Below, in pieces: positions 454-58,174 of a DNA stretch of 64,000 bases (its first letter is position 1; each line of letters begins with the position of its first letter). This DNA comes from Anaspis maculata (Eukaryota; Arthropoda; Insecta; Coleoptera; Scraptiidae). The stretch is taken from contig OX421962.1 in the NCBI GenBank assembly GCA_949128115.1, positions 61,607,787 through 61,671,786 on the forward strand. Direction: 5' to 3'. The translations under genes were made by a program, and so were the position numbers. The notes beneath the pieces were generated by a model. The model made no database searches. It was given only the letters and a program-made list of their open reading frames with translations, and was not told where the DNA came from.

Positions 454-963
454 TTTTAAAACAGCAGCAAAAGCAAAGCTGCAGAAGTCGAGTTGTAGAC
501 GAGAATCGAAATTTTGTTTGAGTTAACCTATAAATGTCAATGTGAATTTCACAAACGCATGCGCATGACAGATGTCAAGGTGACAGTCAGAAACTGACGT
601 TTATGCTGACGTTTCACAAAATCCCTAGACTCGAGAAAGATAAACGTGGATGTTGTCGGAGGATCTTGTGGACTATCAGCGTTTTTATGTATAATTTTAA
701 TAATAATTATTGTTGTTGTTAATAATCATGATACAGTGAGATCAAAATGGAATATGCTTCCTTTCAAGCTGCTCTAGGCAATAGTTCGTTCGCCTCGTTC
801 ACCTGCATCTGTTGCTTTGTTCCGCATTCCACCAGTCTTTGATATCTCCTGCTACAAGTTAGCCTTCAAGTTTATTTTCCCTTTTAAACTTAATGTCATG
901 CGGTAAAAGTCCATATCAGTATGTGGAAAGGTGAGATTGATAGCGCAGTAGAATAGATCCAAA
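454..963. promoter_or_regulatory. Intergenic space between divergent genes, likely bidirectional promoter
   Basis: This is the gap between the start codons of the unrecognised minus-strand gene and the PEX11 gene. It should hold both 5' UTRs and promoters. I see no clear TATA box. The spacing and divergence are the only support. Confidence 0.35.
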
Positions 964-1794
964 ATGGGTTGCGTTTTTAAAATAATTTTGGATGAAATTT
1001 GTGACTTGCTGGATAGTTACAGAGGTAGAGATAAGGTAAGCACCCTGACTGAAGCCATTATCACAGTCAAATAATTACCGTAACGTAACTTTTCATTCCA
1101 GATATTAAGAACACTGTGCTACAGCACAAAACTAGTAGGTGGAAGTCTACAAAACAACCCTGAACTTGCCAAGAAAATATTGGGATTCAGCAAATTAATG
1201 TCTCAAACTCGAGCTACTTTGAGGCTTTTGGATGATTTGCCTATGCTAAAATTCAATTTAGAATATGGATTTGGTGGTTCTGAAACTGATACCCTAATGG
1301 CAGCTTTAGGTGTCACCACTAACATCATCGATCAAGTGTATTATCCCATAGAAAAAGTTTCTTGGCTTGCAGAACATAAGCTGATGACTTCAGTGAATGC
1401 TGACAAATGGGATACAGCTAGCTCAGTTTTCTGGGTGGCATCTATTTATTTAACTTTAATGAAGTGAGATTTTCTTTGGAATCTCTTAGTTTTCATTACT
1501 ATAAATTGTTTTTTTTTTAGGAGCTTGAGATACATCTCGGTTATACAAAAACATAAATCCTGTGTGACTGGCTTGAATGATGAAAGAGTGTCTTTGGAAA
1601 AACTGATATCCAGGCAAAAGTTTGAGCTATTAACCTGCATCAGGTTGAGCTTGGACTTGATACATGCAGTTAATACTCTGCCCAAAGGGTACTTGTGGTC
1701 TGCAAAGCTGAATAATTGGCAGGTCGGGCTTATAGCAACAATGTCTTCGGTCATGGGTATTTATCAGATATACGCTAAAAGAAACCTTAAGTAA
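964..1794 (+). CDS. Pex11c: Peroxisomal membrane protein PEX11, gamma type
   Basis: Three exons: 964-1035, 1102-1463 and 1521-1794. The phases agree (72 + 362 + 274 nt = 235 codons plus TAA). The protein starts MGCVFKIILDEICDLLDSYR and matches PEX11-gamma along its length. Visible matches are the LLDSYRGRDKILRTLCY start, RLLDDLPM, DQVYYPIEKVSWLA and the C-terminal LPKGYLWSAKLNNWQVGL-MSSVMGIYQ block. In this family it is a peroxisomal membrane protein that helps membrane elongation and division. Length is normal for the gamma form (about 240 aa). The start is the first ATG of exon 1, after AAA. An AATAAA at 1820-1825 follows the stop by 26 nt, so the 3' UTR is short. Both introns are about 60 nt. 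Confidence 0.93.
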
Positions 1795-1819
1795 AGTTTT
1801 TAATGTATAACATAAGGAC

Positions 1820-1825
1820 AATAAA
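1820..1825 (+). terminator. Polyadenylation signal AATAAA of the PEX11 gene
   Basis: Canonical hexamer 26 nt after the TAA stop. Confidence 0.6.
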
Positions 1826-2399
1826 CGGAAACAAACTTTCTTTTTCAATTTGTCAAGGCTTTGAACCCACACACTTCAGGGAAAGGTGAGCAAGAAACAC
1901 GCAAGGATCTCCATGAAGGTTCCGAGCTAGGCAACCAAGAATACATCTGCCTTTAAAAGCCAATAATAGGATAATAATTTGAACCCAAAAACGATGCACT
2001 TCGCTGAAGAATGTAAATAAAACATTCCCCGACTCGGAATACTGCCTTTGCCATTGGGATTTCCAAGTATTTTTAACTTTATCCCAAACTCGAATTTCCC
2101 CTTCTCTTCTGCTGCTGTTCCAGTTATTATACAGTTGGTGCAACTTCTACTTTAACCTCCCTCGCCCCTTAGTTTGTTTTCATCACAATGGCCTGTCAAA
2201 TCTTTAAAACTAGCGTGAGAATGTGAGATTTTGCATCTTATTGTTGCCTCTCGCTCATCGTTCTGTTTGAAAAGTAGCAGATACCCATCTCAGCGTATTG
2301 CCACACACAGGAATGACGAATTTAACCCATGTGTTTTCCGAATTTCGATTTTTGTCATTTTTTTAAACGGAAATCCACTCCTGGGCTTGCCGTTTTGAA

Positions 2400-5300
2400 A
2401 TGGCAGCTTCTGCAAGTGATATTGAAGAGTTCCTGTCGGGGCCACTGGTCACCTGGGTGAGTTGTGCTCTGGCGTTGTACGGCAAGGATTTTTGTAAACG
2501 GTATTTTTGTAGCTCGCAACGTGCGTGAAAAGACCGGAGGCTCTGCAGGTGTACGATACGTTTTTCGATGGAGGGCCTTTTGCTGAAGTTTTATTGCAAA
2601 TTGATCCGGAACCTTCTCAGCCAGTGCCTACACCATGCAATCTCCAAGGCCTTAATATAACATCGGCCAGGATCAAAATTTTCCATTGCATACTGAAGAA
2701 CATCAAAGCTGTGTATGAGGTGAGGATGGGGTTCAGGCACATAGCTGAAAACAGGAGCATTTGGAGTTTTTGAAGGAAATTGTAGCCACTTTCCATTGCA
2801 TCAGCAAATTATCACACTTTTTCAGCTAGGACTGCAAATACTGCAATAAGCAATGCTGTACTTATCCCACGGATACTTACCCACTGACACTTGATGGATC
2901 CCTAGCTTACGGAACCAATCACATTTGTTCTTGCCTAGATACTGATACTTACAAGCCTAGGTGGGTAAATACAGAATTGTGAACCAGATTCACATCCCAA
3001 ATACGGTCCAAATCCATACTACGTCTAAATTAGGGTGTTATTTCAAGGTAGTTTTTATCTCTACTGACACTAAGTAGCTGACACTGCTGACAGTTATACT
3101 CTTCTTGACGTTTTACAGTTGAAAATGTCAAAATATATCTAGCCTACCTAAAGTGGGAGAAGTTGATTTGCATGGCACTCTTGACTGAAGATGATAGAAT
3201 AATACAGAATGTTTGAAGTCATGGGGTAGAAACATGGACCTGTAGCAAAGCTGGACTGATATTAGCGTATATCGCATGGTCCAAATAATGGGCTGAAAAA
3301 TCCGCCATGGTAGCTACCAAACACTGGTCAGTCAATCATCAGGCATTAGTCAGACATTAACATTTAAAACACTTGATTGTAGTTTGAGTACCTACCTACT
3401 CACAGATAATTGATCATTAAATTCAATAATAGGATATTCGTGTTTACAGAACCTGACACAAATGGAAATATCTTGCTGTTATCTTGTTGAGAAAGTTTTT
3501 GACTAACTGTCGCTCTCACTCAAACAGCAGCCGCGATCAGAAACCTGCTAATCACTAGCTCTCAAACTTTTTTCTCACGTTTTTAGGGCGCAAACAAACC
3601 TGACCACATGTTTCGAACAAAGAAACACGTTATTGCTAACGCTTTTCAGAACTTCCCTTATTTTCTGTTCAGCATGGTACCCTGAACAGCAGTCCAGTTC
3701 AAGTGCAGATCCATGCGGTAGAAAGTTGAACTGGTTATAAAGGGCAATAAATAAATAAATTAGTCTGAGCAATGTATAAAAACAAGCTTCCTAGGCGGTA
3801 TTGTGATACTAGTTGATTGGAAATCATTCAGTTCGGTGGAGGATAGTCCTTAGAACACTTTTTTTTTGGTGGACATCAATATTCCCCCATCACTGATTTT
3901 TGATGGCTCTTTCAAAATGAAGATGAAAGAAAAATTCAGCATTCGCTGGAGCTCCGATCCTACTTAGCAGATTTTCAAGCACGATGCCTTGTTTTGAAGG
4001 TACTTGCAAACCAAAGAATATTTGCAAACGCTGCAAAAGAATTCAACAGTTTTGTCAAGATTTGACAGTCTATACAGGTGTCCCGTTTTTCAACGCTCAC
4101 CATTGGTACCTCGGAAACGATAAGAGATCCAAAGTCGGTTGGATCACAAGAAAGTTGCGCAATTTTATGACTATCTCAAACCTGTCAAGATATCCAAGAT
4201 ATCTTTGGTCATTTCTGTAATATCCCCAAAAAAAAAACTGAAAAATGCCGAATCCGAAAATTTCAAATCGCTTCTTTATTATGACAGCTATCAATTTGAA
4301 AATTAGTATCCTGACATTTTTTAAGGTCCTTGATCGACTGACGTTGATATTTTTTTCCTGCGCTTGTTTTTGAGATATTACAGTTAACTTGATTTTTTGT
4401 TATGGACACCATATTATTTATCCACCCCATAAAACTCACCTTTTCTTTCTCTTTACAAAGGTATAAAACACTTGTAGCATTTTTGTCAAAATAACCTGTA
4501 AAAATTGGAAAAACTGTTTCTGAGGCGAAAAAATCGAGTTACCGAGATAGAAAATTTTTAGTGGCGTTTTTGAAGGAAAAAGAATTTTTGAAATTTATGA
4601 ATCACCCTGTAAATCAAATCAAAGTTCAGGCACACCCAGTGGTTGATAATTTTCACTGATGAGTCTTGAAACGTACAAAAATAGAGAGGGGCGAAGTCCT
4701 ACCCTTTGATCCCCCAGTAACAAAAGATCAATAAAATTATTTATTTATTTATTATTTATTTATATCTTCAAAAATAAACGTCACAATTTTTTTTTAACAT
4801 TTTTTCCGTGTTCTTGAGTAGATTCCATTTATTGCTCTGGACTTGGAATTCGATACTTTTAAGACACCCTGTATAGTAGTGTATAGTCTTACCAAATAAA
4901 ATTCGTTGTATGCTTAAAGGTGCGTTCAGTCAGCTTATTTAGCCGTAAGTTTTAATTTTAGTCGCAAGCGCAGTGACGCCCATTGGCTCTTATGAACCAG
5001 CTTCCTCAGAACAGCCAATAAGCGATGCAGCGCTTACGGCTAAAATTAAAACTTGCGACTAAATAAGCTGACTGAACGCACCTTAAGAGTCTATAATGTT
5101 TCGGTAATATCATTTCGTTATAATCCCAATACAGGAAAATACAACGAGTCCGAAGGACTAGAGTGAACGATGAACGTACTATAACGCTATAACGTCGATG
5201 AACAGGAGAGATCGCTAAAACCCGAGCTAAAACCTCGGACAAAATATTGACGCCTGAAAATTTGATGTTTTGTTTGAGTAGTTTGAGTACCTTACTACAT

Positions 5301-18961: not shown

Positions 18962-21900
18962 ATGTCTCCGACTCCTATGCCTGGGTAAGCATGATGATGA
19001 TTGCTTGAATGATTATGTTGTGATGAATGTTACCCTGACCCTAAAAACTTAACAAATTTAAATTAAGCACTTACTTACATAATAAAAGCTCTAAAATAGT
19101 AACTATATTAGCATAGGAGTTTCATAAGAGGTGGTGGTAGTATTGTCACATGACTCGTCCAGCTCGTCACAAACTTGTGGTAACTACCCCAATCCCCAAA
19201 GGAATCGGTGTGACAATATGTCTTATTAAACTAGTGTTATAATAGTAGGTATATTATAAATTCTACTTTGTCCTAATAATTACGCGGAAATTGGGAAGTC
19301 TAGATAATCGCTAAAAAAGCGCAACTGACGTTTCTCTACCTTGTTGTAATAGAAATAAATTTTATCTTTTTTTTGTTATACCTACTAGTTATGAAAAACA
19401 GTATCACAGGGTGCTACTTTGTGTAACTGAAAGGCATGGAGGTTAGAGAGAAGGAGACTGAACGACATTGGTTTCTGTCATAAAAAATGGCACTATTTTA
19501 TGTCGCAAAAATGCAGTTCAAAAATTATACACTGTGTCGCTGGAATCTGGGGACGGCTCACAGGAAACTGTAATTTTGCTCAAAGGATACAGCTCTGTAA
19601 TTATTCATGGTTTAGATCTGAGGCCCGTCTCATAAAACTACAAACGGCATGACACATTACATACAAATGACAAATTACAAATGTATAACCTTGACGACAA
19701 ATTGTTGCAACAATGGGTTACCAAGACTACACACTTGTAAATTGTCGTTTGAACTTTTATGAAACGGCCCCCCTGATGATGCTTTTATGCCATGCTTTCT
19801 GCATGGACTTTTATGTGAACGAGATGTAACGGAAACGATCATATATTTGTATTTTTTCTAAGAAACATCGATACATAATTATATCAAAAGGAAAAGGTAA
19901 TGAGGGAACCATTTGAAAATATCTACAATCAATATGGCAAGCATGTGAATCCAATTTTGCCACGAATTTTGCACAAAAACCAATACTCTGATGGAAGGGA
20001 AATTTGCATCGAATTTCTTCGTCCGTAATAAGCATTGGTCGATGTTCGGGTGCGTTTATGTCTTCGATCGTGGGTATCTGTCGATGAGCAGGTGAGGTGA
20101 AACATGGCTGTCAATGGGGCTTCGCTTGCCTGCAGGCTGTCTGAGCACGATCTTCTCAGCTCCAGTCTCATTCGTTTTCCTTATCTTTGATGGAACCTCC
20201 ACCTCCCTTTGGTCCAACGATTCATGCTGTTTTGAAAAAGTGGTGAGAACTACATTCTCCTTCCATTTTGGAATGCTCCTTCTAATCACCTGGAAGACTG
20301 TTCCATCCGAAAGCTCTGTTGTGAAACAGATACCGTTCAATGTCATCATCTCTAAAATGTAGTTCGCAACAGGGATCACCTTTGTAAACCTTTTCTCTCG
20401 ATGTCAGGGGTCTACCTTGCCTCCTGATGGCATTCCTCCATTCACAAGCCATTTCGTCCTTCAACAAGGCAAAACGTTAAACAGATACTATTATAATAAG
20501 AATAAATATATCATAGAGGAACCAAGAGAGCCGGATCGGAACCCCACGTATAGTAGGTACAAAGTTTATACAGTTGAACTTACTGCGTGAGGTCGGAACA
20601 TGCTCCGGCATTTTTGGCCACTTTTCCTCAACCGGGCCTTCTCATTTCCATTGGAGCTTGTGCACCCTGGCGCACAGCAAGACACGGTGAAGGAATGAAG
20701 AAGGAATTTACTTACTCCTAGTTTTGTTACTGTCATCACAAGCAAATTGAATCAGTCACTTTGACAAATAATGACTAATTCCAAAATTTGCCACACGAGC
20801 GCAAGCAACAGTGGACGGCTCCCGGAATTTTCACGACATAAAAGTAGCACACATTTGAATGCCTCGATCAGTCTCCTTACTTCTAACCTCCATGCTGAAA
20901 GGAAATAGAGCACTTAGTGCCACTGGCCGCATTCGTAAGTCACAACAGTTGTGGAGCACTTCCACGCGATTCGTCGAAATTTGTATTTTGACCAATGGCG
21001 TAGAAGTGCTCCACAACTGTTGTGACTTACGAATGCGGCCACTGTTTTGGCTGCCATTAACGACATTTTGACATAAGACTAGTTCTTTGAGTTCACTAGT
21101 TCAACAATGGACACAGGTAGGTATGTACTGAATGTGGTGTCAAAAAGAAGCTTTTTGTTAAACCGCTTTTTAACCAATAGAAACGGTGCGGCGACAAAAT
21201 ATCCCAGGCCAAAAATATCCCCGCCAATAATGTCCCAGCCAATAAATATCGCCGCGACAAAATATCCCAGGCCAAAAATATCCCCGCGACAATATATCCC
21301 CTCCAATAGGCGATTGACCTTATTGGGGAAAATGGCCGTTTCGTCGAGGAAGTTTTAGGGCATTAATTTTTAGAACTGGTGTAAGTTGCCGTCCGGCAAC
21401 GGCGGTGGTTACGTCAATTGGTGGCATGTCAAAACTGTCACTTTGCTGTCTTGTGCAGTACGCTACAAGCAAACTTTCGTTCCTGTGAACCCTTGGGACC
21501 CCATAGGCTCGTTATTGGGCCCCATATTGATGACCAGCGTCGTCGCAGACCTTTCTCTAAATCATCCATAGCTTCCGTCCAAGGAAGAGCAACAGACTCT
21601 GTCACACCCGCACGGAGGGAAACACACAAGCCCGTCGACCAGCCTGCCAGCCAAGAAAAAATCACCTCGGGCTGGCCGTGCAGAGTCAACCACCACCTCG
21701 CTTTTTTCTAAAGATTTCCTGCTTCGACTTCAGCAGGAGATCCGCATTTTTCATTCTAACAAGCTCGCCGTAGCTACCTCTGTGTTCGCGACGTAAACGT
21801 TGTCTTTTTTTATCGCAATAATGTAGTGCATTGCTGGGGGCGTAGCCTTTCAGCTGCGCACCTCTGGAGCTAGATCTACTACAAAGCTGCTAAATACGCC

Positions 21901-31157: not shown

Positions 31158-34100
31158 TTATGCTTCATATCGTCTATTATTTAGTCGTCTCCTTTTTTGA
31201 ACTGTGTATCCAAAAGCTGTCATAGATAGTATCAGAGCCAGAAATGCTAGCCCAGCAAATGCGGTCGTGTTACTGCTCGTACCCCCGCTGATTTCGGCAG
31301 TCTTCACTTCTGACTTTTGCTTTTGTTCATCATCAACTTTAACTCCTTCCACTGGATTATTAAGTAAACTTTTCTTTTTCTGTTTGATTGCCTTTGGTTT
31401 CCTAGTAGGTTTCCGTGTGGTTGTAACTATTTTTTGTTGGTCCAACGGAGCACTTTCAAGATACTCCTCCAAAGGTTGAAAGTATTCTAGGAGAGGATCT
31501 GCGGACAGTTCGTAGAAGCCGTAAAAGAAATTCACTAAATACGGCCAGTCGTTTGTTGGTCTGTCACGTATCATGTTCCTGTAGAAAAACTCATAAATGT
31601 TGTAGGATTTTGAAATGCCACCTGGAATACATCCCTAATGACCTTACGTGCTATGCAATCACGCCCTGCGAGGAGTGTAGCGTGTATACATGGTGTTTGA
31701 AATCTTGCGGACGAAAATTAAACTGATTATAAATGGTACTCTGACTTTAAAGTTTAAACTAAACTTTTTTGCTTTTCAAAATCTATCGTAAACGGTAAGT
31801 TACCTCACGGATATCGATATCGCTACATCCGTACATCCATGTCGGATTTCAACAAAATTTAACCAGTGGCGGCGGAGCCATGGAGTTCGACATTTTGACA
31901 ATTTTTCCCCAAGTAAAAACGATCTCTGTAACTCCACCGCTATGCACACAGGTGTTTCCAAATGGTTCCGAAAGACTGCAAGGAGTAATTTCCTGACTTA
32001 TTTTAATACAACTTATAATAAAGTACGTTCACTATTAATTTCAAAAATGAAGCTTTTGACAACTTTTTTCACTCGGCAGATGGCTCTACACCTCTCAGAT
32101 AACTTACAGATAGCAGGTGGTCGTCACTCCAAATTATTGTACAAAATTAAACAAAAAAACTCACCTGAAGTTCTCATCCTTGCCAATTTCTAAGGCGATG
32201 TTTGCATCAGGATCCAACATTGAGTTCTTGTAGTAACTAATGAGGTGAAATTGCAAAATTTGTCCTAAGAATTTGGTCAAAAATGGTTGGTTTGACGAGA
32301 ATTCTGGTAAGCCCAAATAGTCGTTTTCATCACCAGATATGCCTTCCACGCCCTGGTATTCTTTCCTAGAAATTATACGAATTACTGAGGTTGTCATAAT
32401 TCTGATAGAAACATTGCAGTGAAGAGAAAATTTGCTGTATGAATTAATTGGTACCAACCAAGGTACCAACTCATTACCACAAATTATAAATAAATGACTG
32501 TTTAAACTCTGTCGTATGAATGTAAATGATTAAAATGCACACTTGTCATGGGGCCTAGAAGGATTTTTCGTACGAAGTACTAGAGCCACTACTGTAGTCA
32601 ATCTTTAGGTACTGTGTGAGCTTTACCTGAGCTTCCACCAGTTCTTGTCCATTTCCTCATTATAAATCCCATCTTGGCTCTCGTTCAGTCTCCATTTATC
32701 CGCCGCCAAGTAGAACGGCAGCTTCGGCAAAACCCTCAGAGCCACCAACAAGAGTTTTGCCATTTCAGCTGAGGTTCCAGTCGAATTTGAACCATCCAAT
32801 GGCAAATTTCTGATGGCCATAGTCGAGGCCATTGACTTTATACTCTCGTCGATAGCTGAATAACGCAAATTTAAGCGTGATAAAGCTAAGTAATTGTCAT
32901 TTTTCAACGTTACATCTAGGGCAGTTTCACACGCATCCAAATATTGAACATACGATGTTTTTTCACATGTGAAAAGCCTAAAATAAATGTCTTTTTCAAG
33001 TGTTCATGGTCACTTGATATTACGAACTCACTCTGTATGTTCTTGGGAACAGAAACTCAAAACAGCTTCGTCGCATGATGGATTATCAAACACACTTTTC
33101 TTCCAAAATCCATCGCCCAATTCCCTCGTAGTCATTTGTTTTGAGATACTTTCTGCCATTTTATACATTTCTTTGGAAGTCTGCAACGTAAAATTTTCAG
33201 TCAACTTATTTTTGTCCAATTTGGTAGGCTCACTTTTGACTTGAGAAAAGTTTCGGCATCATAATGGATTTGAGGATGAGGTAGTATTATATCCGCTACA
33301 TAGCTCCAATCATTTCCGAAATTAGAACCTGAAATTCAATATAATGAGAGACCAACAGAACGAGGTACACGTTGAAGGTAAAATCTTACCCAGCAAGTAA
33401 ACAGGAATGGAAGAAGTTTCGCTAGTGATGTTGTAGAAATGAAAAATTCTAGTCTGAACAAATTTGTGTAATTTTAAAAACAACGGCTGAATTTTATCCC
33501 ACAAAGCATCGGCAGTGGCATAAGCGTCTTGTTGGTCTACTAACATTTCCCAGTACGATTTCAAATTTTCTTTCTCTAAAATCGCATTCCAGAAAATATT
33601 TAGGTTTAGAAATTCATATGGGTGTACAACTGTACTACTACACTGTACCTATCTATAGTCGATTTTTAAAATTATTCCAAAGAACTTACCATTCTGTAAA
33701 AGCGCAATGTTGGTCAAATCTAAAATGGAAGAATATTCCTCTTTGGTCGAATTGAACTTTCCTTGCCAAGTACTCCAGACTGTTTGTAGTATTGTTTTGT
33801 TTCTTGTTCTATGCAGGATGTCTACATAGTCTGTAAAAAAATACCTTTGTAGCTTTGTGGTTCAAGACAACAGTTTTAAACATTTTAGTGGGTAATAAGC
33901 TGGTAACAATAAATCAGATGAAAACACACTGGAAAGACACTAAACGCGTTGAGTACAAAAATGCGCTATCGTAACCTTTTGGCCATAGTTCTTCCGCATT
34001 TAAACAATTTTTAACTCAACGCTAAAAGCTATCAAAATATTTCAATTCACTAAAAACTTCGCAATATAGTCCGGTGGTTAAGCGTTCTAACTATGCATTT

Positions 34101-37100
34101 TGAGCTTAAGCAATGCGCTTTTGGGGTTTGATTGGGGGTCCCTCAACCTTAATTTCAAGAGTTGGAGACATCAGTGCACTCGATGCGGAGGGGGTCTGGG
34201 GGGCCCTTGAAAGTTGAAGGTGCGAGGCTTTCCACCAAATTACCATACCACCACGTAATTCCTACTGGGAGGCCATCAAACGACTCTAACCTGTACAGTG
34301 ACAACATTTGCCATCATGTCCAAACAGTTCTTCACACTGAAAAAAATTAATTCTTATGACAGATCGAAAAAAACAGTTTTTCTCAATTCTTCATCCCCAC
34401 AACAAATAAACTGCTAAGTTTGGTGTCATTTTGGAGTAAACGGCATCCTCTGATTTCATTCACCGAGTCAAAATGTTTGTGAGACCACCGTGCAAAGAAT
34501 GGCACGCCAAGAAGTGAGCATTTTCAAGCACCTCATTTAACAGTAGTTTCTTGGCTGTTACCAATCGATATGACTGATATATTTGTTATGGATCAATAAC
34601 TTGAACTCTTTTGTAACGTTAATGCATGTGCATGAAACTTGACACGAGCGTGGAGGCCTGAAACAAATTTTTTCTCCAGCGGTCGAATTTATTTCACGCC
34701 TACTGAGCGTCAGTTCGTTGGGCTCAGGTAGGCAGCGTTTGGATAGCTTTGGAAGCAAAATTTTCATATCTATCTGAAAAGTTGAGCGGCTTAATTCTGG
34801 AAATTGATTTATGAATCATCAATGATTATTTTGCCTGTCAATAGCCACATGGGGGTTAACTGCAGAGGTGATGGCTAACGGCGGAGGGCATTCAACGTCC
34901 AAGATCTTATTCTCTGCCACTCTGACAGTTATTTTCACGGTTGTTGTTTATGAAATTATATCTTTTCCAAACATAAGAACACTTACACGTACAAAATGAT
35001 AACAACCTTGAAGGTTGGTAGAGGAAAAAAGAAAATAACACTTTTAAAGTTTAATGCCCTCCGTCGTCAGCCATAATCCCTGCAGTAATCCCCATGGGGG
35101 TACCTAGTGACTGTCAAAATAATCTTTAATGAATCTCAAATCAATTTCCAGAATTATGCTACTCAGCTGCATGGACAGATATGAAAATTTTGTCTCCAAA
35201 CCTATCCAAACGCTGCCTGCCTGAGCCCAACAAACTGAGGCTTAGTAGGCGTGAAATAAATTTGACCGCTGGAGAAAATTTTTTTTTACAAGCCTCCACG
35301 CTCGTGTCGAGTTTCATGCACATGCATTACCGTTACAAAAGAGTTCAAGTTATTGATCCATAACAAAATTATCAATCATATTGATTGGTAACAGCCAAGA
35401 AACTACTGTTAAATGAAGTGCTTAAAAATGCTCACTTCTTGGCGTGCCATTCTTTGCACGGTGGTCTCACTAACATTTTGATTTGGTGAATGGAATCAGA
35501 GGATGCCGTTTACTCTAAAATTACACCAAACTTGGCAGTTTATTCGTTGTGGGGATGAAGAATTGAGAAAAACTGTTTTCTCCGATCTCTCTTAAGAATT
35601 AATTTTTTTCAGTGTGAAGAACTGTTTGGACATGGTAACCAATGTTGTCAATGTGTAGGTTAGAGTCGTTTGATGACATACGAGTAGGAATTACGTGGTG
35701 GTATGGTGATTTGGTGGGAAGCCTCGCACCTTCAACTTTCAAGGGCTCCCCAGACCCCCTCCGCATCGAGTGCACCGATGTCTCCAACTCTTGAAATTAA
35801 GGTTGAGGGACCCCCAATCAAACCCCAAAAGCGCATTGCTCAAGCTCAAAATGCATAGTTCGAGCTTTTTTTGGCGCTTAACCACCGGACTAATATCACT
35901 GAATGGGTAAAATCTATAAAATTAGAATTAAAGTTTGGTGCAACCGAGGGTATATTAATAAAACTGATCCTGCAAAAAAGCAGGACAATAAAGGACAGCG
36001 ACACTTCAAAAGTGATTTGAAACTAAAAGGCATGATGATCGTGTAAAGCAGGTCACTTTTGGTTTGCGCCTCTGGGTTAAAGGTCATAGGATTAACAAAA
36101 AAAAAATTTGTTGGAAAAGCATCAGAAAAATAGACACGCTTGTTTCACTATATGAACAATTAGATCAGAATCTGGGGAAAAACGCATTTAAAATAATATT
36201 TTTTTCAGTACACACAACACCCCTTGGTGCAACTGAAGGATAGGTACTTATTTAATTTTCCAATGTCTTACCATTATAACTGATGTAGTATTTTGGATCC
36301 AGTACCAGGTGTGTTTTATTTTCTATTCTAGTATCCTCGCTAGTATCATTCACAAAAAATACATCGGTATTTCTGACTAAATTTTGGTTTTTAATTTGAA
36401 AAGCCACTAGCTGTGAACAGAAAATCGACATTTTAGACTTCGAGTTATTGCTGCCTGGGGAATTTATTGGGACTAAAATGTAAAAGACACTAAGTTACAC
36501 AACGGTTACAGCCAATTTTGTAGGCGCAAAATTCCTAAAAACGCACACTGCATCGTCTGATGCGTACGGTACCACCTAGATCGACCAGTAAGTAGGTACC
36601 TACACTGCAAGAAGTGCAAGATGGCATTATATTATATTTTTGCTGAAAATTAAAATCTCTGATTTATTTAAATTTAAACAGTGAATCGCGTGAAAATTGC
36701 AGCACTTTTTTTTCACCAAAAATAGGGAACGGTCTACACCCTGAAATTGGCAACAGCATTGTTTATTGTCAGGTGGAGTGCTACAATCTGTGTAATAATT
36801 GAGCGTTCAACCACCAGCCACTAGGTATAAAAATGAAGTATTGCATACTGTTTTCCAGTTTTCCGTCCCCAGTAAGGCATCACCAGGTTTAGAAATCACC
36901 GTCCAATTTCTCATTACTTCAAAAGGAATTTCTTCGAATTGCTTTATTGCATTGGACTGATTTTCCAGCAAATCGCCATGCTGTTGCCAGAACACCATCT
37001 GTAATAATAATAATTTTTTTTAAATTATTATTGTATAAAAATATAAATACTATACTATTAAAGTAGGTACATAAGTACTAAATATGCAATAATACTCCCC

Positions 37101-39688
37101 TTACTGTACAATATTTTATGTAGGGGAGAGTAGAGTAAAACCGTTGTTGGTAGGTAGATACGGATTTTGAGACTTATAGGAACTTTGAAATTCCCTAAAA
37201 TTAGATAAGAACTTTAATTGTCATTGAGCTTACACAAAAAATGCTCATAAACAGAATGTTAAAGGGAGGAAGAAATAGAAGATCAATAAATTATTATTAT
37301 TCTAACAGCATTTCACGCGCCAGCTTTCCAAAATTATGGACAATAACAAACAAAACATAATAGATCGAGGGCCTGTACAGTTTTCAGGTGTCCCAGAATT
37401 CAGTACCTACTGAGAAGTGATACCCAATCTACAGGCTGTCTCAGGTTTAAATGATCAGACTTTGGAAAAAGTATATCTCTTATTAGTCCTCCTGATTCAG
37501 AAAAATATATTTCAATAAGTATATGCCTCTCGCTCGCTTCGTAAAAAAGATATACAGGGTATCAAAAACCTACAGAAGAACTCGAGGAAAACCTTATCGA
37601 AACGAAGTTGATAAGTGTTACATTACTAAGATCTCTGACCTCTGACTGCCACAGAACCAGATGGTTGGACTGAATGCCTGCGCACTGATGAGCCCCCAAC
37701 AGGGGCGAAACACGTGTCTGTGCGGTTTCGGTCTGATAGTCTGGTGTTGTGGTGGTCGGAGAGCTTTGTTTTATTTAAATGCGAAGGTGTCCGCTTTTGT
37801 CCATACATAGGCGAAGGTGTCCAGTAGACGACTTTCACTACGTAATCTCGAACATTTTCACTTGCGCGTACATTCCGTCGCGATGTCACGATGACAACTC
37901 CCACATTATACATAGCACATCATGACATTAGCATCTAGTTAGGGCACCATTCGTACCAACACAATCAGTTTTTCCGTAACTTACTCTAATGAAAAAAGCC
38001 GTGAAATTGATTATAGAGGTGAGACATGCATGCGAAATTTTGTTACAATCAAAGCCCTCTTCGCGAAGTTACGACACAATTTTTAAAAAATATGAACTTT
38101 GATACTCCCTGTTTGATACTGTGTCTTGGAAAGCGAGTGAGAGATATACCTACATATTTTAATATTGGTAATTTCACTGCTCTTTTTTTTGGATAAGGAG
38201 TAAAAGAAAGATATTCTCCCAACGTTTGATCGGTTCAACCCCCCAGATTAGCCTGTCAAACTTCAGCAGCAGATTATACGATCAAGACAAAAGTTCTCAT
38301 AAATATGGCTCGAAAAATGGGGGACCTTAACCTTCCTATGCTCAATAAGATGGGGTGAAAATACTTTGTTTATTTTCACTGGGGGAGGGTCCAACCAAGA
38401 GGGCTTGGGGGGGGGGGGCGGTAAAATGGACCCCAATGTTTTCAATGTATTTTTTCTTTTACATATTTTGACATGACTGTGATTCTGGAGTTTTCTTGAT
38501 GTTGAACTGTGATAGAGGATGTACCGTTTCCGAGTAAAATCGATTTTAACATTTGAATGCATGCCATGAACTGCATTTGGATGGCTTATTTTCAAATTGT
38601 ATTTTTTCAGATTTCTTTTTTGAACTAGAAAGATTGCACTAGGTTTTATATTGACAATAAAGGTTTCTGTTTGTCTCAAATCGACGAATAAAAATTTTTC
38701 TACGACATGGAAGGCAAAAATTTGTAATTTGTATACGTTTTTTGGACACATTGATATTATCATTCTAATAAGTACCTATATTATGTCCATGTCGATTTTA
38801 CTCGGAAACGGTGCATATCTTATAAATAAGTAGGTACCTATTCAACAAGTAGAGTACCTCCGAGAGTACCTCTTTTCATAAGAAAACTCCAAAATTTCAT
38901 GAAGTCATATCAAAACCTAAAAAAATTACACGCACAAAAAAGTTAGGGTCTTTCACCCCAACACACCTTCCCTCCCTCCCCTCGCTTTCGTTCAGTAAGC
39001 AGTTGGAGCCACCCCCCATGAACATTTTCGAGCTATTCTTACCCTATCTTGTTCAGAATAAAAAGATTGGTAGATATACCTACTGAATGCATAATATATT
39101 TTCACCTTGACTAGCTTCGGAGATATTAAATGAAGAATAAATCTTCAGGGGGCACATTTAGGGGTATATGTAAGTTCTCTAACAAGCATTTTTCGACCCA
39201 TATATGTTCATAGAAACTTTTTCGAGTTTTTTCATTTTTTGTCGTAGGATTATTAAAGTTCGGCAAGCTACTTCACGGACACCTGTACCTAATTTATGCA
39301 TGCAAAAAAAAAAGCGGCGATATATAGCAAGAAAAAGTGTGGAACGGAAGTGAGACAGGCGATGAAGTGAGAAGTACTCCATGCGCAGTTCCACCCCTAT
39401 TTTTGAAGTTCAAATGTTTTATAATATCTGATAATATTTATTATGATCAAATTTGGGAGAGCTTGCTTAGTGCAAGTGAGAGGTAACAGGTAACAATTAA
39501 AAACTTACAGATTCGTTGAAATCATTTTGCAGCAGCGCCCACTTTTTACTGTTGGCCAAGTTTTCGCAATCCTCTTCCAATTCATAATCCATCAGTTCCA
39601 ATTCAGCTAGTATTTGTTCTTCATTCTGTTGACCTAAAGCGATCAAGACGAACATGCTGAGCAACAACACGAGTATTTTGGTCCACAT
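31158..39688 (-). CDS. Ance-3: Membrane-anchored, catalytically dead ACE-like protein (peptidase family M2)
   Basis: Ten exons: 39688-39509, 36998-36849, 36410-36272, 33830-33690, 33575-33390, 33328-33234, 33180-33032, 32977-32627, 32365-32165 and 31578-31158. All phases close: 2013 nt, about 670 aa. There is a signal peptide (MWTKILVLLLSMFVLIALG), then ACE-type blocks: KLHKFVQTRIFHFYN...IPVYLLG, FWKKSVFDNP, LPFYLAADKWRL, NWWKLRKEYQG and LLEYFQPLEEYL. Where active ACE has the HEMGH zinc site, this protein reads DACETA (residues about 361-366). The third zinc ligand motif HEAIGD reads SAIDES. A C-terminal membrane helix (AFAGLAFLALILSMTAFGYT) ends in a short basic tail. Drosophila has inactive ACE paralogues, of which Ance-3 is thought to be membrane-bound, hence the symbol. 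Orthology is not proven. Introns 1 and 3 hold large foldbacks. Confidence 0.85.
34068..35891. mobile_element. 1.8-kb foldback element with AATAT target duplication, in ACE-like intron 3
   Basis: The ends are AGTCCGGTGGTTAAGCG and its inverse. AATAT flanks both sides (34063-34067 and 35892-35896). The two halves are inverted copies over about 800 nt each. The block GGGGTCCCTCAACCTTAATT-type near 34135 pairs with its inverse near 35805, and CTATCCAAACGCTGCCT-type blocks pair near 34725 and 35205. The centre (about 34860-35100) holds a smaller inverted pair around GGAGGGCATT/AATGCCCTCC, probably a nested element. No transposase is encoded. Confidence 0.85.
37640..37761 (+). ncRNA. Long RNA hairpin extending stem I of the hammerhead
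   Basis: Beyond the 7-bp inner stem I there is a small internal loop (37675-37677 against 37726). Positions 37640-37674 then pair with 37727-37761 with only two mismatches (37663/37738 and 37655/37746). Across all 42 paired positions I count 29 Watson-Crick pairs and 11 G-U pairs when read as plus-strand RNA. The internal loop next to the core and the stem II loop are placed as in hammerheads with loop-loop contacts. This hairpin is probably the terminal unit of a transcribed element. Confidence 0.75.
37678..37725 (+). ncRNA. Type I hammerhead ribozyme
   Basis: All parts of the hammerhead are present in order. Stem I 5' strand is 37678-37684. The core CTGATGA is 37685-37691. Stem II is GCCCC (37692-37696) with GGGGC (37702-37706), closed by a 5-nt loop. 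GAAA is 37707-37710. A minimal stem III is formed by the self-complementary ACAC|GTGT (37710-37717). The cleavage-site C is 37718, giving the classic GTC triplet, and the stem I 3' strand is 37719-37725. Stem I is open at the outer end, so this is topology I. The very short stem III is like that of hammerheads in animal Penelope-like elements and retrozymes, where activity often needs a dimer. It lies in intron 1 of the ACE-like gene, on the opposite strand. Confidence 0.88.
38300..39045. mobile_element. Foldback element in ACE-like intron 1
   Basis: GGCTCGAAAAATGGGGG near 38308 pairs with CCCCCCATGAACATTTTCGAGC near 39010. GTACCGTTTCCGAGTAAAATCG near 38520 pairs with CGATTTTACTCGGAAACGG near 38791. 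The arms are imperfect. Confidence 0.55.
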
Positions 39689-41390
39689 TTTGTACACAAG
39701 AACTGAAAGGTGAGGATCATGAAAAAGTGGAAAAACCCAATTTGAATAAAGGTTAATTCAAAAGTATAGAAGGTATACTCACATAGGTACCTACCTAATC
39801 TCAACAAGTTTTATTGTTGCATATTTCAACCAAGATAATCTCCTCGACACACGCACTCCGACGATCTTTTACCTTATGATAATTGTAAAGCACCGCACCG
39901 TCCTTTCGTACTGTTAATCATAGTCCAAAAGTCAAGAACTGTGAATGGAAATATGATATAGATATACCTGCTACTTAAAATTGACTTGGTACTGGTACTG
40001 GGTTGTTGTTTACTAGTAGTAGACTAGTAGAGGTATTACATGTTTAAATTACAAACGCGCATTATTATTATTACCTACCGAGTTGTAGATGCAAACGATA
40101 AAGGGAAATCAACAAAACCAAAACTTATACGATTCCGTACAAGAATAAGCTCGGGTCATAACAGAGTTTCCCGGTCATTCAAGAATTGAACTGTTTTTAA
40201 ATGCTTTGTAGTGTTATCGAACACATTAGTCATTAGTCTCTTTCAAGTATTTACAGTGAAGGTTTAACCAATCGAGGACCTGTGGTACTATCTACTCTAC
40301 AGTTATCTCGATTGTTCACGTTTTTTGATGAGTTCCCCTGTAAAAATGTGCTTCGGAATTCGGAAATAAGTACAGGGCGATTCATATAAAAATGCCTGCC
40401 TTATTTTTGGCAAACTAGGTTGATCTGTACCCTACCTATAGATATAGGTACTAAAGTATTGATATCTCCAACTTGGCTTTATCTCTTTAGAAAATCCTTT
40501 ATTACAGGCGTTTCGAAGTCCGTATCCGTAATTCGTTTGTCATCGAACTCCTCCTCCTAAACTTTGAGTCCTTCGATTTGGCCTTATTTACTAAATTTAA
40601 CAAAGGTTCAACTTATTTTTGTACACTTTTTCGATGTCCTATTTGAGGATGAGAAACAAAATGTGATGATCGTGAGGCGGCTTTCAGACCAGTGGTGTTG
40701 CGAACTTAGGAAGGATAGGTAGCCAGTTAGCCACTGTCATCCAGTTAGCTATCCACCTTCCCTATAAGAGCTTCACGCATACCTGTGAGCGCAGAACTAA
40801 TGGTCCTGTAGTAGAGCCGTCGCCTGTACTGTGGTATGTACTAGCGGAAATCTGTGCTCACAGGTATGCGCGCAAGTAATTTCTCTCACGGGAAAGGTAG
40901 ATTAGCCTAGACATTAGAAGAGAAGTCCAATAAATAATAACGGTCAGTATTGCCAACAAATTTAAATGCGCCTTTAGTTAAGGGACATTCAAGGTTTATG
41001 TTTACCTCTCAGTTTTCATGTTTCATGTTCAAAACTACCTACTGTTTAACCATTTTTTCCGAACCACGAGTGACTATAGTGAGCATTTATTCTAGTACAG
41101 CACGGCGCCCAGTGTTGCTTGACTCAGCTATTAGAGGCTTGAGTGTCAAGGTGCTATTTCCGTCATATTTTCATGCTAGAAATATAGCACGAGAGAGTAA
41201 GAGTAGGTAACTAAGGGGTTTCTGAACTGGTCGTTTCTAGTCACAATTTCTAGCATGAAAATATGACGGAAATAGCGATGGTCTACTACACTATACTATT
41301 ATCCATCTCAAGCTTAAAAAACACCACAATCTCCTATGATGATATTATGTTCTCTTCAAGTTGGACAATCTGCCAGTTTTGATTTAATTG
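39689..41390. other. Upstream region of the ACE-like gene; no gene seen
   Basis: It presumably contains the promoter and 5' UTR of the ACE-like gene. It also holds small inverted repeats (CGCATACCTGTGAGC near 40777 with GCTCACAGGTATGCG near 40856; GCTATTTCCGTCATATTTTC near 41151 with its inverse near 41255). I see no convincing exon. Confidence 0.4.
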
Positions 41391-52745: not shown

Positions 52746-54350
52746 CCTTGGACTTTGAAAAGTAGGTAGATAGGAATAAGTCGACTGGATTTCAGAAATG
52801 TTAGCTGCTTGGATCGTTCTTGAATGCCAGTTTTGATTAGAGATTTAGTCCAGGAATTTTAGCTGTTAAAATCGCAAATAGCGAACAAAAATGAAAGCGA
52901 GCCGGATTTTTGTATATAAGCTCAGTTAGGCCTGTAGTTCAACATAGTAAAAGTCCTCAAGAATCCGGTGTGAGCTTCGGCCGTTGTGGCCTCGAGAAGA
53001 ACTTGAGGATCAGTTTTTTGCGTATATCTCGTGAACAACGGCACTTAGGAAGAAAGTGCTTGGAAAGAAATTGTTGAAAATTTTATTGTCTATAAGAAAG
53101 GTCCTTACACATTCCATCGTCAGTCCACTCCTTCTTCGTCAAAACACAAGAAAATTAAAATAATCCAGATGCTCGATGCTGAAGACTGTATGGACCTTGA
53201 GTTTTATGATGGCGGAGTGCCACCTCGTAGATGTGTTGGTCGGTCCACTATTTCTTGATTGAAACTGGAAGTCATCAATACGAACTATGCCGGCGGCATA
53301 TACAGGGTGAAATAAAAATAAAAAGTTGAACATTTGTACCTCAAGAACCAAAATAGGTAAAGACATGTAAATCGCCATAAATAATTCTGATTTCATGGTC
53401 ATAAAGTCATCGTAAACTTGAATTAGATATCTTGAGCCGTTCTTGAAATATCTTCAAAACACTGAAGTTGTTACCGAAAAAAGTATTTTTTTCGCCTACT
53501 CATCAGAAAAAAAGTTGACTGTGTTTTTTCTAAAAGTAGTTGGCCTAGAAAGTGTTTTTTACTATTATTTAATTTTTAATGTTATTTATCATTGTTTCGA
53601 TTCAAAACACAAAGTCTCGATTCAATATCTGAAGAATTACTGATATACGGAAAACTAGTTTTTTCTCGTAACGACTTCAGTCTTCTGAAGATATGTCAGA
53701 AACGGCTCAACATATTTGATCCAAATTTACGACGACTTCATGACCATGTAATAAGGAATATTTTTGGCGATTTATATGTCTTCACCTATTTTGGTTCTTG
53801 AGGTACAAATGTTCAACTTTTTATTTTTATTTCACCCTGTACCTATATGCCGCCGGCATAGTTCGTATTGATGGCTTCAAGTTTCAATCAAGAAATAGTG
53901 GACCAACCAACACATCTACGAGGTGGCACTCCGCCATCATGAAACTCAAGGTCCATACAGTCTTCAGCATCGAGCATCTGGATTATTTTAATTTTCTTGT
54001 GTTTTGACGAAGAAGGAGTGGACTGACGATGAAATGTGTGAGTACCTTTCTTATAGACAATAAAATTCCCAACAATTTTTCCTGGGACACTTTCTTCCTA
54101 AGTGCCATTGTTCACGAGATATACGCGAAAAACTGATCCTCAAGTTCTTCTCGAGACCACAACGGCCGAAGCTCACATCGGATTCTTGAGGACTTTCACT
54201 ATGTTAAACTACATGCTTAACTGAGCTTATATACAAAAATCCGGCTCGCTTTCATTTTTGTTCGCTATTTTTTCCAAAATTCCTGGACTAATTGGTCTTT
54301 TCTAACATTTCTTTCTGGAATCCAGCCGACTTCCTAGCGGAGCCGTATGA
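52746..54350. mobile_element. 1.6-kb foldback element
   Basis: The left arm (about 52746-53425) is the inverse of the right arm (about 53715-54350). For example, both arms translate in opposite directions to the same AAGIVRIDxFxFQSRNSGP stretch, which is a property of the repeat rather than a gene. Its right half recurs at 57254-58010. Confidence 0.8.
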
Positions 54351-54510
54351 ATTATTTCGCTCCCAACTGTACCTACAAAGGGGGTGATTGCTTCGCCATT
54401 TCAACACCAGACAAGTTGTATTTTCTGGGCAAACTACTAACAGTCATTTACTGATGCCCGATTGCGCAAACTGGTATCAAATATTTCAGTTCAGTACCAA
54501 ACATTAATAG
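53586..54510 (+). repeat. Direct repeat copy 1 flanking the retrotransposon
   Basis: 925 bp, almost identical to 57254-58174. The only length difference I see is 4 extra bases near 53841. Confidence 0.9.
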
Positions 54511-57253
54511 TTTGTTAAACATTACATTAATAATTACTTACCTTGGCTTCTGTTTACTGTCCTCCTGGACAACCAATCAAGAGTGAACAGTTTGACGATT
54601 TTTTCAAGACACTTGGGAGCAAATTTCTGGCTGGTGGAGACTACAATTCTAAGCATCCGTACTGGGCATCGCGACTGACTACCCCAAGAGGCAGACAGCT
54701 GTATCAAGCGATGCAAATGAATAGCATGTACCCACTTACAACTGGACAACCAACATACTGGCCGACGGATTCTTGTAAAGTACCCGACCTGCTCGACTTC
54801 TGCATGATAGGAGGGATCAGCAGCAATTACTTCGAGATCGAGCCCTCCTGGGACCTATCTTCTGACCACTCTCCGATCATCGTTACGTACAGAACAGCCG
54901 TAACAAAGCAAATCAAGCAATTGTCTCTGACTAACAGAAACACGAACTGGGCAATGTTCAGAGAGTATGTACAGGGAGAGTTGAGGATGGATATCCCACT
55001 CAAAAGTGGAGCAGACATTGAAGTGGCCGTTCAGCAGTTCTCGAGTGTACTGCGTGCCGCGGCGGCTCGAGCTACTCCACGGGCGGAGCACGACCGGGCG
55101 GGAAGAGAAAGGCTTCCGAAAGACATACAGGACAGAATCGACGAGAAAAGAAAACTGCGTAAGAGATGGCAGGAGACTCGGGCCCCAGCTGATAAGACGG
55201 AATTGAATGTGGCAACAAGAAAAGTGAAACTGTTATTGATGAACCACCGAAATGACGGAATCTACAACTATCTTAGCAACCTTTCATCCTCCGAGGCTGG
55301 AGATTACTCACTCTGGAAGGCTACGAGAAAACTTAAACGTCCGCAAATACGCATTCCTCCTATCAGAAAAACCCAGGGTGGATGGGCCAAAAGTGATGAA
55401 GAGAAGGCCGATGCTTTCGCGGATCACCTCAGTGACGTATTCAAGCCATTTCCAGCCATGATACCACCAGAAGAGGAAAGAAAAATTAACCACTTCCTTG
55501 AAGCCCCGTTACAGCTCGACCTTCCTATTGACAACTTCATCAAGAGGAACATTCTCAAAATAATAAAAAAAACTCAAACCCAGGAAGGCGCCAGGAAGAG
55601 ATGGAATAACGGGAAAAATGATGAGAGAATTGCCGGAGGAAGGTATTCGTCTCTTCACAATGATTGCCAACTCCATAATAAGAACAAGCCACTACCCATC
55701 AACTTGGAAGGAGGCTAAAATTATCGTTATACCAAAGCCGGGCAAAGATGTCACCCAGGTAACATCCTACCGTCCAATTAGCCTCTTATCGGTTCCTTCA
55801 AAAGTGTTCGAGACGTTGCTTCTGGAGAGGATTCGGCCTATCCTGGATGTGCGTGGATTGATCCCTGGACACCAGTTTGGTTTCCGTCGACAGCATTCGA
55901 CGTGCGAGCAAGTCCATCGCGTGGCAGCTAAAATCCGCAATGATCTCGAAACCAAGCGATACTGCTCCGCCGCCTTCTTGGACGTTTCCCAAGCCTTTGA
56001 CAAGGTATGGCATCGTGGGCTACTCTACAAAATCAAGAGGGATCTCCTTCCCGGGTCTACGAGATCCTTCGAAGCTACCTGTCAGACAGAAGGTTCACCG
56101 TTGGGTTCGGGGTAGCTGAGACATCCCTTAGAAGCATTGAGTCGGGAGTACCCCAAGGGAGCGTCCTTGGTCCGGTCCTGTACCTGCTGTTCACAAGAGA
56201 CTTACCAACATGCAGGAATACGGTTCTGGCAACTTTTGCCGACGACACGGCCGTAATGTCTTCACATAGAGATCCTACCATTGCTTCGACCAATCTTCAA
56301 ACCCACTTAAACAAAATAGAGAAGTGGCTAAATACCTGGCGGATCAAGGCAAACACGCTAAAGTCTGAGCACGTGACATTTACTCTCAACAGAGCCACAT
56401 GTCCCTCCGTTACGTTGAATGGCGAAGTCTTACCACAGAAGGAGGAAATCCGATACCTGGGCATGCACCTAGACAGACGGCTGACGTGGGCCGGTCATGT
56501 CTGGAAAAAGCGCCTACAACTTGGGCACACCAGGAGGAAGCTCCACTGGCTGCTGCGACGAGGATCCGGTCTGTCCCTTGAGAACAAAGTCCTTTTGTAC
56601 AAGACTGTGATAAAGCCTGTGTGGACATACGGTATACAGCTGTGGGGATCGGCTAGCGCCTCAAATATCATGAAAATTCAACGTTTCCAAAATAAGATGC
56701 TCAGGGACATAGCGGAAGCTCCATGGTACGTTCCAAACTGGGTGTTGCATCAGGACCTGAACGTCGCAACAGTACAGGAAGAAATATCCCGATACAGCAC
56801 TAGATACAGGGCCAAGCTCGAGTCTCATCCAAATACTCTAGCTGGAGAGATGCTCGTCGAGCCGAGGGTGAAGAGGCTGAAGAGAAGCAGTCCGCTCGAA
56901 TTACCAGACCGATTCTTATAGCCAGTGATGAGCGAACGAGATCGCCCCATCCGCGATGCCTGCCACTACTTCAGAATGGCTTCTGTAGTCTGCTTTTTAT
57001 TTGTATTATAAGTACTCATTTTATGTTCCGCGTGATTTATGTTTGTTAAGTCTGTTAAGGTGTTTGTGTCTTGACATTGATTTTATTTATATTAATTGAA
57101 ATTTTTTAACATGTCATGTACATAGTCAATGCATTGGGGGAGCAGACAGTGGTCTCTCCCCTTCCAGAGTGTTAAGTGTCGTATGAATTATTGAATGTCA
57201 CCCGTGACAGATTGTAATTAAATTTGGATGTTGAAAAAAAAAAAAAAAAAAAA
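54511..57253 (+). mobile_element. Jockey-like non-LTR retrotransposon, 5'-truncated
   Basis: It begins exactly where direct repeat copy 1 ends. It carries the C-terminal part of an endonuclease and a reverse transcriptase ORF, then a 3' UTR of about 330 bp and a poly(A) tail at about 57237-57253. ORF1 and the start of the endonuclease are missing, as is usual for 5'-truncated insertions. Confidence 0.9.
54543..56921 (+). pseudogene. Broken endonuclease / reverse transcriptase ORF of the retrotransposon
   Basis: The segment in the first frame (54543 to about 55590) begins inside the endonuclease (ASVYCPPGQPI; LAGGDYNSKH; SDHSPIIVTY). The RT follows in two other segments: 55618 to about 56060 (SYRPISLLS, FGFRRQHSTCEQ, FLDVSQAFDKVWH) and about 56060-56921 (SGVPQGSVLGP, the catalytic TFADDTAV, YLGMHLDRRLTW). 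The reading frame changes near 55590 and again near 56050, so no intact protein can be made. The motifs fit the jockey clade of arthropod LINEs. A stop codon lies just upstream of the first motif, consistent with the truncation point being close by. Confidence 0.88.
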
Positions 57254-58174
57254 TTATCATTGTTTCGATTCAAAACACAAAGTCTCGATTCAATATCTGA
57301 AGAATTACTGATATACGGAAAACTAGTTTTTTCTCGTAACGACTTCAGTCTTCTGAAGATATGTCAGAAACGGCTCAACATATTTGATCCAAATTTACGA
57401 CGACTTCATGACCATGTAATAAGGAATATTTTTGGCGATTTATATGTCTTCACCTATTTTGGTTCTTGAGGTACAAATGTTCAACTTTTTATTTTTATTT
57501 CACCCTGTATATGCCGCCGGCATAGTTCGTATTGATGGCTTCAAGTTTCAATCAAGAAATAGTGGACCAACCAACACATCTACGAGGTGGCACTCCGCCA
57601 TCATGAAACTCAAGGTCCATACAGTCTTCAGCATCGAGCATCTGGATTATTTTAATTTTCTTGTGTTTTGACGAAGAAGGAGTGGACTGACGATGAAATG
57701 TGTGAGTACCTTTCTTATAGACAATAAAATTCCCAACAATTTTTCCTGGGACACTTTCTTCCTAAGTGCCATTGTTCACGAGATATACGCGAAAAACTGA
57801 TCCTCAAGTTCTTCTCGAGACCACAACGGCCGAAGCTCACATCGGATTCTTGAGGACTTTCACTATGTTAAACTACATGCTTAACTGAGCTTATATACAA
57901 AAATCCGGCTCGCTTTCATTTTTGTTCGCTATTTTTTCCAAAATTCCTGGACTAATTGGTCTTTTCTAACATTTCTTTCTGGAATCCAGCCGACTTCCTA
58001 GCGGAGCCGTATGAATTATTTCGCTCCCAACTGTACCTACAAAGGGGGTGATTGCTTCGCCATTTCAACACCAGACAAGTTGTATTTTCTGGGCAAACTA
58101 CTAACAGTCATTTACTGATGCCCGATTGCGCAAACTGGTATCAAATATTTCAGTTCAGTACCAAACATTAATAG
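57254..58174 (+). repeat. Direct repeat copy 2, immediately after the poly(A) tail
   Basis: 921 bp, starting TTATCATTGTTTCG right after the A-tract and ending ACATTAATAG, the same end as copy 1. See 53586-54510. Confidence 0.9.

Follow-up and report, generated by a model that had tools for sequence, protein, structure and literature searches.

Metazoan retrozymes, as treated in parts of a 2020 review, lack a conserved motif revealing the autonomous element that moves them (PMC7761336), and passages of a report on metazoan non-LTR retrozymes name Penelope-like elements (PLEs) as strong candidates for the mover and mention conserved amniote hammerheads in mRNA biogenesis (PMC7229834). For rotifer Penelope, sections of the published account describe inverted pLTRs with 8- to 10-bp duplications (one example of 9 bp) and a tail on one of the inverted pLTRs, and attribute the head-to-head copies to self-priming on antisense RNA (PMC3846280). 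The enzyme of an Anolis PLE cleaves and extends both target strands; its reverse transcription begins internally at two sites, the interval between them being the "tail"; the two strands showed no difference in start site; and insertion in vitro was independent of ribozyme cleavage (PMC11167929).

The window, that is, the whole stretch of 64,000 nucleotides that was analyzed, holds one copy of a retrozyme family that gives unusually direct evidence for its mode of insertion. The insertion scars of this family bear a Penelope-like signature, beside PLEs of the same genome. The mode of insertion is the new part, and our results support a rule by which head-to-head insertions of a retrozyme end at two different sites, A and B; we found no description of this insertion pattern in retrozymes in the openly licensed literature.

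The hammerhead and its extended hairpin

The plus strand of the window carries, at 37678 to 37725, a type I hammerhead ribozyme, confirmed as genuine by its sequence, by a descriptor scan and by its copies in the genome. It consists of a 7-bp stem I (37678-37684/37719-37725, two of the pairs being G-U), the CUGAUGA core (37685-37691), a 5-bp stem II with a 5-nt loop (37692-37696/37702-37706), GAA (37707-37709), stem III (37710-37717) and C17 at 37718, with the predicted cut at 37718/37719. The CUGANGA...GAAA core, H17, three stems and an open stem I are all present, and self-cleavage between GUC and U is the activity that would be predicted of such a hammerhead. The best Rfam model is HH9 (RF02275), with an E value of 5.2e-4 over 64 kb and of 3e-6 in 401 bases, and the descriptor scan returned one match over both strands of the window and none in the reversed window. 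These results, together with 1127 genomic copies of the core against none for its reversed pattern, bear out the claim of the preliminary description that a complete type I hammerhead is present beyond chance. The covariance-model check that it had proposed came out divided: HH9 matches at E 5e-4, but its score of 31.7 bits lies below the HH9 gathering score of 52 bits. No Rfam family reached its own gathering score in the 64-kb window, and that threshold, taken literally, had been set as the limit below which the motif was to be given up. We overrule this literal reading because of the descriptor scan (one match against none) and the genomic cores (1127 against none). Since the HH9 score is below the gathering score, the ribozyme is classed by its core, stems and copies and not as a member of Rfam HH9. 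A chance likeness to a hammerhead, for which the low HH9 score could be cited, has practically no probability left, as it is already refuted by the 1127-core family, along with the descriptor scan and the paired stems across 48 copies.

Stem III was described in the preliminary account as a 4-bp stem. It is the perfect palindrome ACACGUGU without a loop, and because ACAC/GUGU has no loop, 4 bp cannot close within one molecule; the stem of a single molecule could be no longer than 2 bp, closed by an ACGU loop, whereas two molecules could share an 8-bp stem. For two 48-nt copies, RNAcofold gave a double hammerhead at -44.7 kcal/mol, whereas the best fold of the 48-nt monomer (-18.2) is not a hammerhead and the hammerhead fold lies at -14.8.

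The hammerhead is the tip of a hairpin of ~43 bp. This extended stem I (37639 to 37762, plus strand) comprises a 36-bp outer helix (37639-37674/37727-37762), an internal loop (37675-37677/37726) and then the 7-bp stem I. In 48 aligned copies of the region 37639-37762, standard pairs occupy 94.0% of 2375 pair cells, compared with 32 to 48% in controls with slid partners. The majority pairs include 10 G-U among 50 and no A-C, and the presence of G-U without A-C suggests that the strand of the hammerhead is the RNA strand. Covariation in the 48 copies was 0.149, against 0.134 +/- 0.003 after column shuffling, an excess that relatedness alone could yield. Changes on both sides of a pair occur in 32 cells against 6.7 in shuffled data, with 17 of the 32 at a single pair of the outer helix (37657/37744); inside the hammerhead there is no compensatory change in the 7-bp stem I and one in stem II. 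Folding of one unit as a circle, a weak thermodynamic test, was just 1.5 sd more stable than 60 shuffles.

The repeat family and its copy in the window

A 34-nt core of the hammerhead, allowing up to 3 mismatches, has 1127 matches in the genome (589 forward, 538 reverse), and an initial genome search, which scored 40 of 1727 candidates, had listed 45 matches that were 84 to 92% identical apart from the window copy itself. The repeat unit is 415 nt counted from the cut site, as defined by two direct copies in one locus (L019), and varies between 415 and 425 nt across copies; the 120-nt unit assumed in the preliminary description has to be replaced by this length. In young insertions the tandem spacing is 418 to 425 nt. 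Among the first 100 listed of 486 young-type cores, 22 same-strand neighbors were found, 20 at 418 to 425 nt, one at 838 nt and one at 1260 nt. The search for further and tandem copies that had been suggested was thus rewarded, with 1127 cores and young tandem arrays, and the likening of a type I hammerhead with a minimal stem III to those of Penelope-like or small circular-RNA retroelements proved apt, such an element being present in more than 1000 copies. The longest tandem arms were read in insertion L092, where one arm has 844 bp (2.0 units) and the other 2272 bp (5.4 units), respectively 100% and 99.87% identical to their own 419-nt unit. In this array, the one checked for reading frames, the longest ORF has 102 amino acids and lies on the antisense strand; it recurs in most units of the array (659-3783 of the locus).

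The window copy as a whole extends from 37612 to 37813 on the plus strand and is a remnant of about half a unit, from u316 through the cut site to u100 (u denotes positions in the unit). The counterpart of start site A, CTTTGTTTYATT, lies at 37764 to 37775, and the copy continues past this first 3' end; no target duplication is recognizable around 37612 to 37813. Judged by its sequence, the remnant is an old and ordinary monomeric copy, truncated, of a metazoan non-LTR retrozyme.

On the minus strand, weak Peptidase_M2 matches mark exons of an ACE-like host gene at 31431-31562, 32620-33204 and 33382-33570 (18.3, 36 and 28 bits), the first of which is under the cut-off. These matches of 18 to 36 bits agree with the earlier statement that the ribozyme is antisense to an ACE-like gene. 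Its placement inside an intron is unconfirmed, as the matched exons end 4.1 kb from the ribozyme, on the opposite strand, and two further exons picked by eye (39497-39757 and ~36860-37000) have no Pfam or PDB match. Splice-like sites read by eye and the signal-peptide-like character of exon 39497-39757 suggest, however, that the ribozyme may lie within an intron. Intronic hammerheads of amniotes, HH9 and HH10, have been proposed to serve a host function. We regard it as very improbable that the window ribozyme is similarly retained for a function in the ACE-like gene: HH9 is its best Rfam match and its site may be intronic, but it is antisense to the gene, is one of more than 1000 copies and sits in a truncated repeat.

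The window also contains a LINE-like element within 52876-58050, with ORFs at 54534-55718, 55567-56115 and 56001-56921 and an A-run near 57237. It is flanked by seemingly identical repeats of ~0.8 kb (53584-54400 and 57252-58050), of which 300 and 256 nt were computed as 100% identical, and an inverted copy of this repeat lies at 52876-53482; the region perhaps represents tandem LINE copies. Further repeats are a long inverted repeat at 34086-35863 (arms of 582 nt, 93% complementary, with 614 nt between them) and a short tandem repeat of 16/32-bp units at 21188-21303.

Insertion ends of the retrozyme and of Penelope-like elements

In 93 segments from 56 loci, the 5' ends of the retrozyme are scattered and the 3' ends are clustered, 31 at u55-70 and 26 at u117-137 (57 of 93, with the other 36 elsewhere). 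The two start sites, A and B, lie ~60 and ~131 nt past the cleavage site. The sequences at the 3' ends are TTTGTTTCATT and TTTGTTGTSTT, and no poly(A) tail is present at the ends read. Among neighboring segments at most 70 nt apart in the 56 loci there are 23 head-to-head, 2 direct and 0 tail-to-tail arrangements, and the same sample of young cores (the first 100 listed of 486) gave 19 head-to-head and 0 tail-to-tail arrangements.

At 17 of 34 junctions, from 68 loci, both outer 3' ends lie at known sites, and all 17 have one A and one B; they correspond to 16 distinct insertions, as the mirror copy in L098 was counted twice. This locus contains, at 722-4001, two mirror-image head-to-head retrozyme insertions within one large palindrome. 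At the remaining 17 junctions at least one outer end is elsewhere or unclear, with clear examples of the former in L006, L011, L012, L026, L081, L087, L088 and L091; the A/B rule is thus shown where the two ends lie at known sites, and not for all old insertions. When a young unit served as reference, 22 of 24 mostly young insertions were classifiable, and all were A/B. The 24 comprise 15 of the 19 young head-to-head clusters (three more were already included and one was omitted), five of which were read from two separate end pieces, and nine earlier loci including those three; L098, with its mirror copy, and L100 and L103, which are not head-to-head, were excluded. Nine of the 24 are also in the 34-junction set, and L097 was A/B in that set and unclassified among the 24, under other alignment settings. 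Pooled, the two sets give 30 distinct insertions, every one of them A/B, with no A/A or B/B case. Since no difference in start site was seen between the strands in Anolis, the Anolis data alone do not predict a rule of one of each.

Target duplications with a score of at least 8 flank 23 of the 24 mostly young insertions, compared with 2.5% of 552 pairs of mismatched flanks. They are 8 to 15 bp long, mostly 12 to 13, and have a GC content of 26%. In older copies, duplications with a score of at least 7 were found at 7 of the 17 head-to-head loci and at 3 of the 32 single ones (control, 3.6% of 2000). This older-copy test covered 49 of the 56 loci, picked by eye (17 of the 23 head-to-head cases and 32 loci taken as single), and omitted L006, L011, L031, L086, L087, L088 and L091; L081 was scored as single in it, though head-to-head by the orientation analysis.

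Of 23 arm pairs, 22 share sequence. In 14 of the 23 the overlap is partial for both arms, so that neither lies wholly within the other. These overlaps favor two primed events, and snap-back self-priming is ruled out for the 14 pairs. A MITE or DNA transposon was rejected as well, as the arms are unequal in extent and stop, on the outside, at two distinct sites within the unit. Mean identity is 97.5% for arms within one insertion and 94.5% for arms of different insertions (n = 16); in 8 of the 16 insertions the within-insertion identity exceeds every between-insertion value, and in the other 8 it does not. The terminal repeats of old copies are barely more alike within an element (85.3%) than between elements (84.0%).

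The same genome contains PLEs with RVT_1 and GIY-YIG domains in long reading frames. Wherever both outer ends of a PLE insertion were readable, one arm was tailed and the other was not (7 of 7 loci or locus pairs; L064, with one arm interrupted, was left out), and the flanks share 10 to 14 bp, with scores of 8 to 14 in these seven cases against a control maximum of 7 in 42 pairs. In three PLE families a conserved region precedes the 3' end by a short distance, and just upstream of this region a T-rich stretch ending in AG, resembling a 3' splice site, was noted by eye (3' regions of L042, L049, L051 and relatives). In one family the region includes a hammerhead-like motif, CTGATGA...GAAAC with the palindrome ACAATTGT, ~60 nt before the untailed end and ~97 nt before the tailed end. 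This motif has 196 matches within 3 mismatches (control, 0), and among the first 100 of the 196, neighbors within 3.5 kb are by eye 24 times minus-plus and never plus-minus. Its stem I is weak, its stem II is preceded by an additional U, and no Rfam match at E<=1 was obtained in 12 PLE loci scanned; we call it hammerhead-like and do not count it as a proven ribozyme. A descriptor search beside PLE ORFs gave one weak match in 29 loci (L063) and, under other settings, none in 109,893 bases.

The retrozyme unit carries no ORF with reverse transcriptase (RT) and GIY-YIG domains and is therefore not filed as a PLE. It displays, however, the PLE insertion signature of head-to-head arms, a tail on one arm and a duplication of ~8 to 14 bp. 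Its start sites show no likeness to the 3' ends in any of three PLE families compared, a word like its tail has a single occurrence in 29 PLE loci, in L046 at 1.3 kb beyond the ORF, and the best match between unit and PLE has an E value of 0.21.

A proposed mode of insertion and its comparison with known systems

We consider it probable that this family is a non-LTR retrozyme whose self-cleaved circle is copied by Penelope-type machinery priming from both cut target strands at A and B. Retrozyme copies would be transcribed, and tandem copies would cleave themselves at GUC/U into units of 415 to 425 nt that could then be ligated into circles. A Penelope-type endonuclease/reverse transcriptase would cut AT-rich DNA with a stagger, and the 3' ends of both target strands would prime on the circular RNA, one at site A and one at B. 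Synthesis of each arm would run around the circle, in some cases for several rounds, and the 5' ends of the two cDNAs would be joined. The two arms of the expected product would lie head-to-head, one with a "tailed" and the other with an "untailed" 3' end, between target duplications of 12 to 13 bp. The insertions support such two-sided copying of a circular RNA at a cut target, and the multi-unit arms point to a circular template: where arms exceed one unit, the units are near identical and the RNA is expected to cut itself, a circle copied more than once is the simplest template that we can infer. A further step, which we put forward tentatively and with somewhat less than even confidence, is that a coupled pair of Penelope-type enzymes acts on a single RNA circle with two fixed start sites ~70 nt apart, one per cut strand. 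If true, this would account for the A/B ends in every classifiable insertion and for arms that, in the youngest insertions, are near identical and span several rounds; the tail that PLEs optionally carry would be the mark of the second start site. The rule of one A and one B is a sharp test of such a two-enzyme, two-primer model for retrozymes and PLEs alike.

The template of the same retrozyme might instead be a linear transcript, multimeric or read-through, that had not been cleaved, with the ribozyme incidental. We hold this to be unlikely. In Anolis, insertion in vitro does not require the hammerhead (PMC11167929), and the cleavage site is not enriched for 5' ends of the retrozyme, of which 2 in 93 lie within ~10 nt of it, in searches that would miss very short inserts; both facts fit a linear template. 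Most segments, however, do not exceed one unit, and yet a single insertion has arms of 2.0 and 5.4 near-identical units, whose linear template an active ribozyme should cut, and more than 1000 copies retain the core with no more than 3 mismatches.

An undiscovered autonomous Penelope-like element of which the unit would be a solo pseudo-LTR appears improbable, even though the insertions of the unit have the anatomy of PLEs. Tandem spacings of 418 to 425 nt or multiples thereof leave no space for an RT ORF, the longest ORF of the L092 array is the short antisense one, and two PLE proteins found no match at E<=1e-3 in 136,954 bases around 56 copies and in the window. The twin priming of L1 likewise produces head-to-head inversions, and a LINE-type enzyme could therefore be considered; on one linear RNA, however, twin priming is not expected to give arms that overlap without containment, as 14 of the 23 pairs do in a set where 22 overlap. 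With the two fixed internal 3' ends and the lack of poly(A) at the ends read, this makes a LINE-type enzyme quite improbable, and Penelope-type copying of a circle from sites A and B remains our preferred reading.

Compared with known systems, the ribozyme scores best with Rfam HH9, below the gathering score, and is here part of a mobile repeat. With metazoan non-LTR retrozymes, as portrayed in the relevant passages of PMC7229834, the family shares a small unit, a type I hammerhead, a multicopy state without LTRs, tandem arrays from dimers up, target duplications of more than 4 bp (here in 23 of 24) and PLEs in the same genome. Its unit of 415 to 425 nt compares with ~170 to 400 nt in the abstract of that report and 150 to more than 1000 nt in its discussion, so that size is no real difference; unlike the retrozymes portrayed there, ours has a very long extended stem I and a palindromic stem III. 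The head-to-head A/B insertions are a further difference, the words "inverted" and "head-to-head" being absent from the main text of PMC7229834, and circular RNA in cells would be predicted for a family of this class. From PLEs it differs in having no RT/endonuclease ORF, in its tail of ~70 nt (~31 to 38 nt in PLEs) and, with respect to the three families examined in this genome, in the sequences of its start sites. With the GIY-YIG PLEs, as described in parts of the accounts of rotifers (PMC3846280) and of the Anolis element PAc (PMC11167929), it shares partial tandems, 5' truncation, head-to-head inverted copies, target duplications of 8 to 14 bp and a tail at one of two 3' ends, and the hammerhead lies shortly upstream of the 3' end in the retrozyme as it does in Anolis and, in hammerhead-like form, in one PLE family of the same genome.
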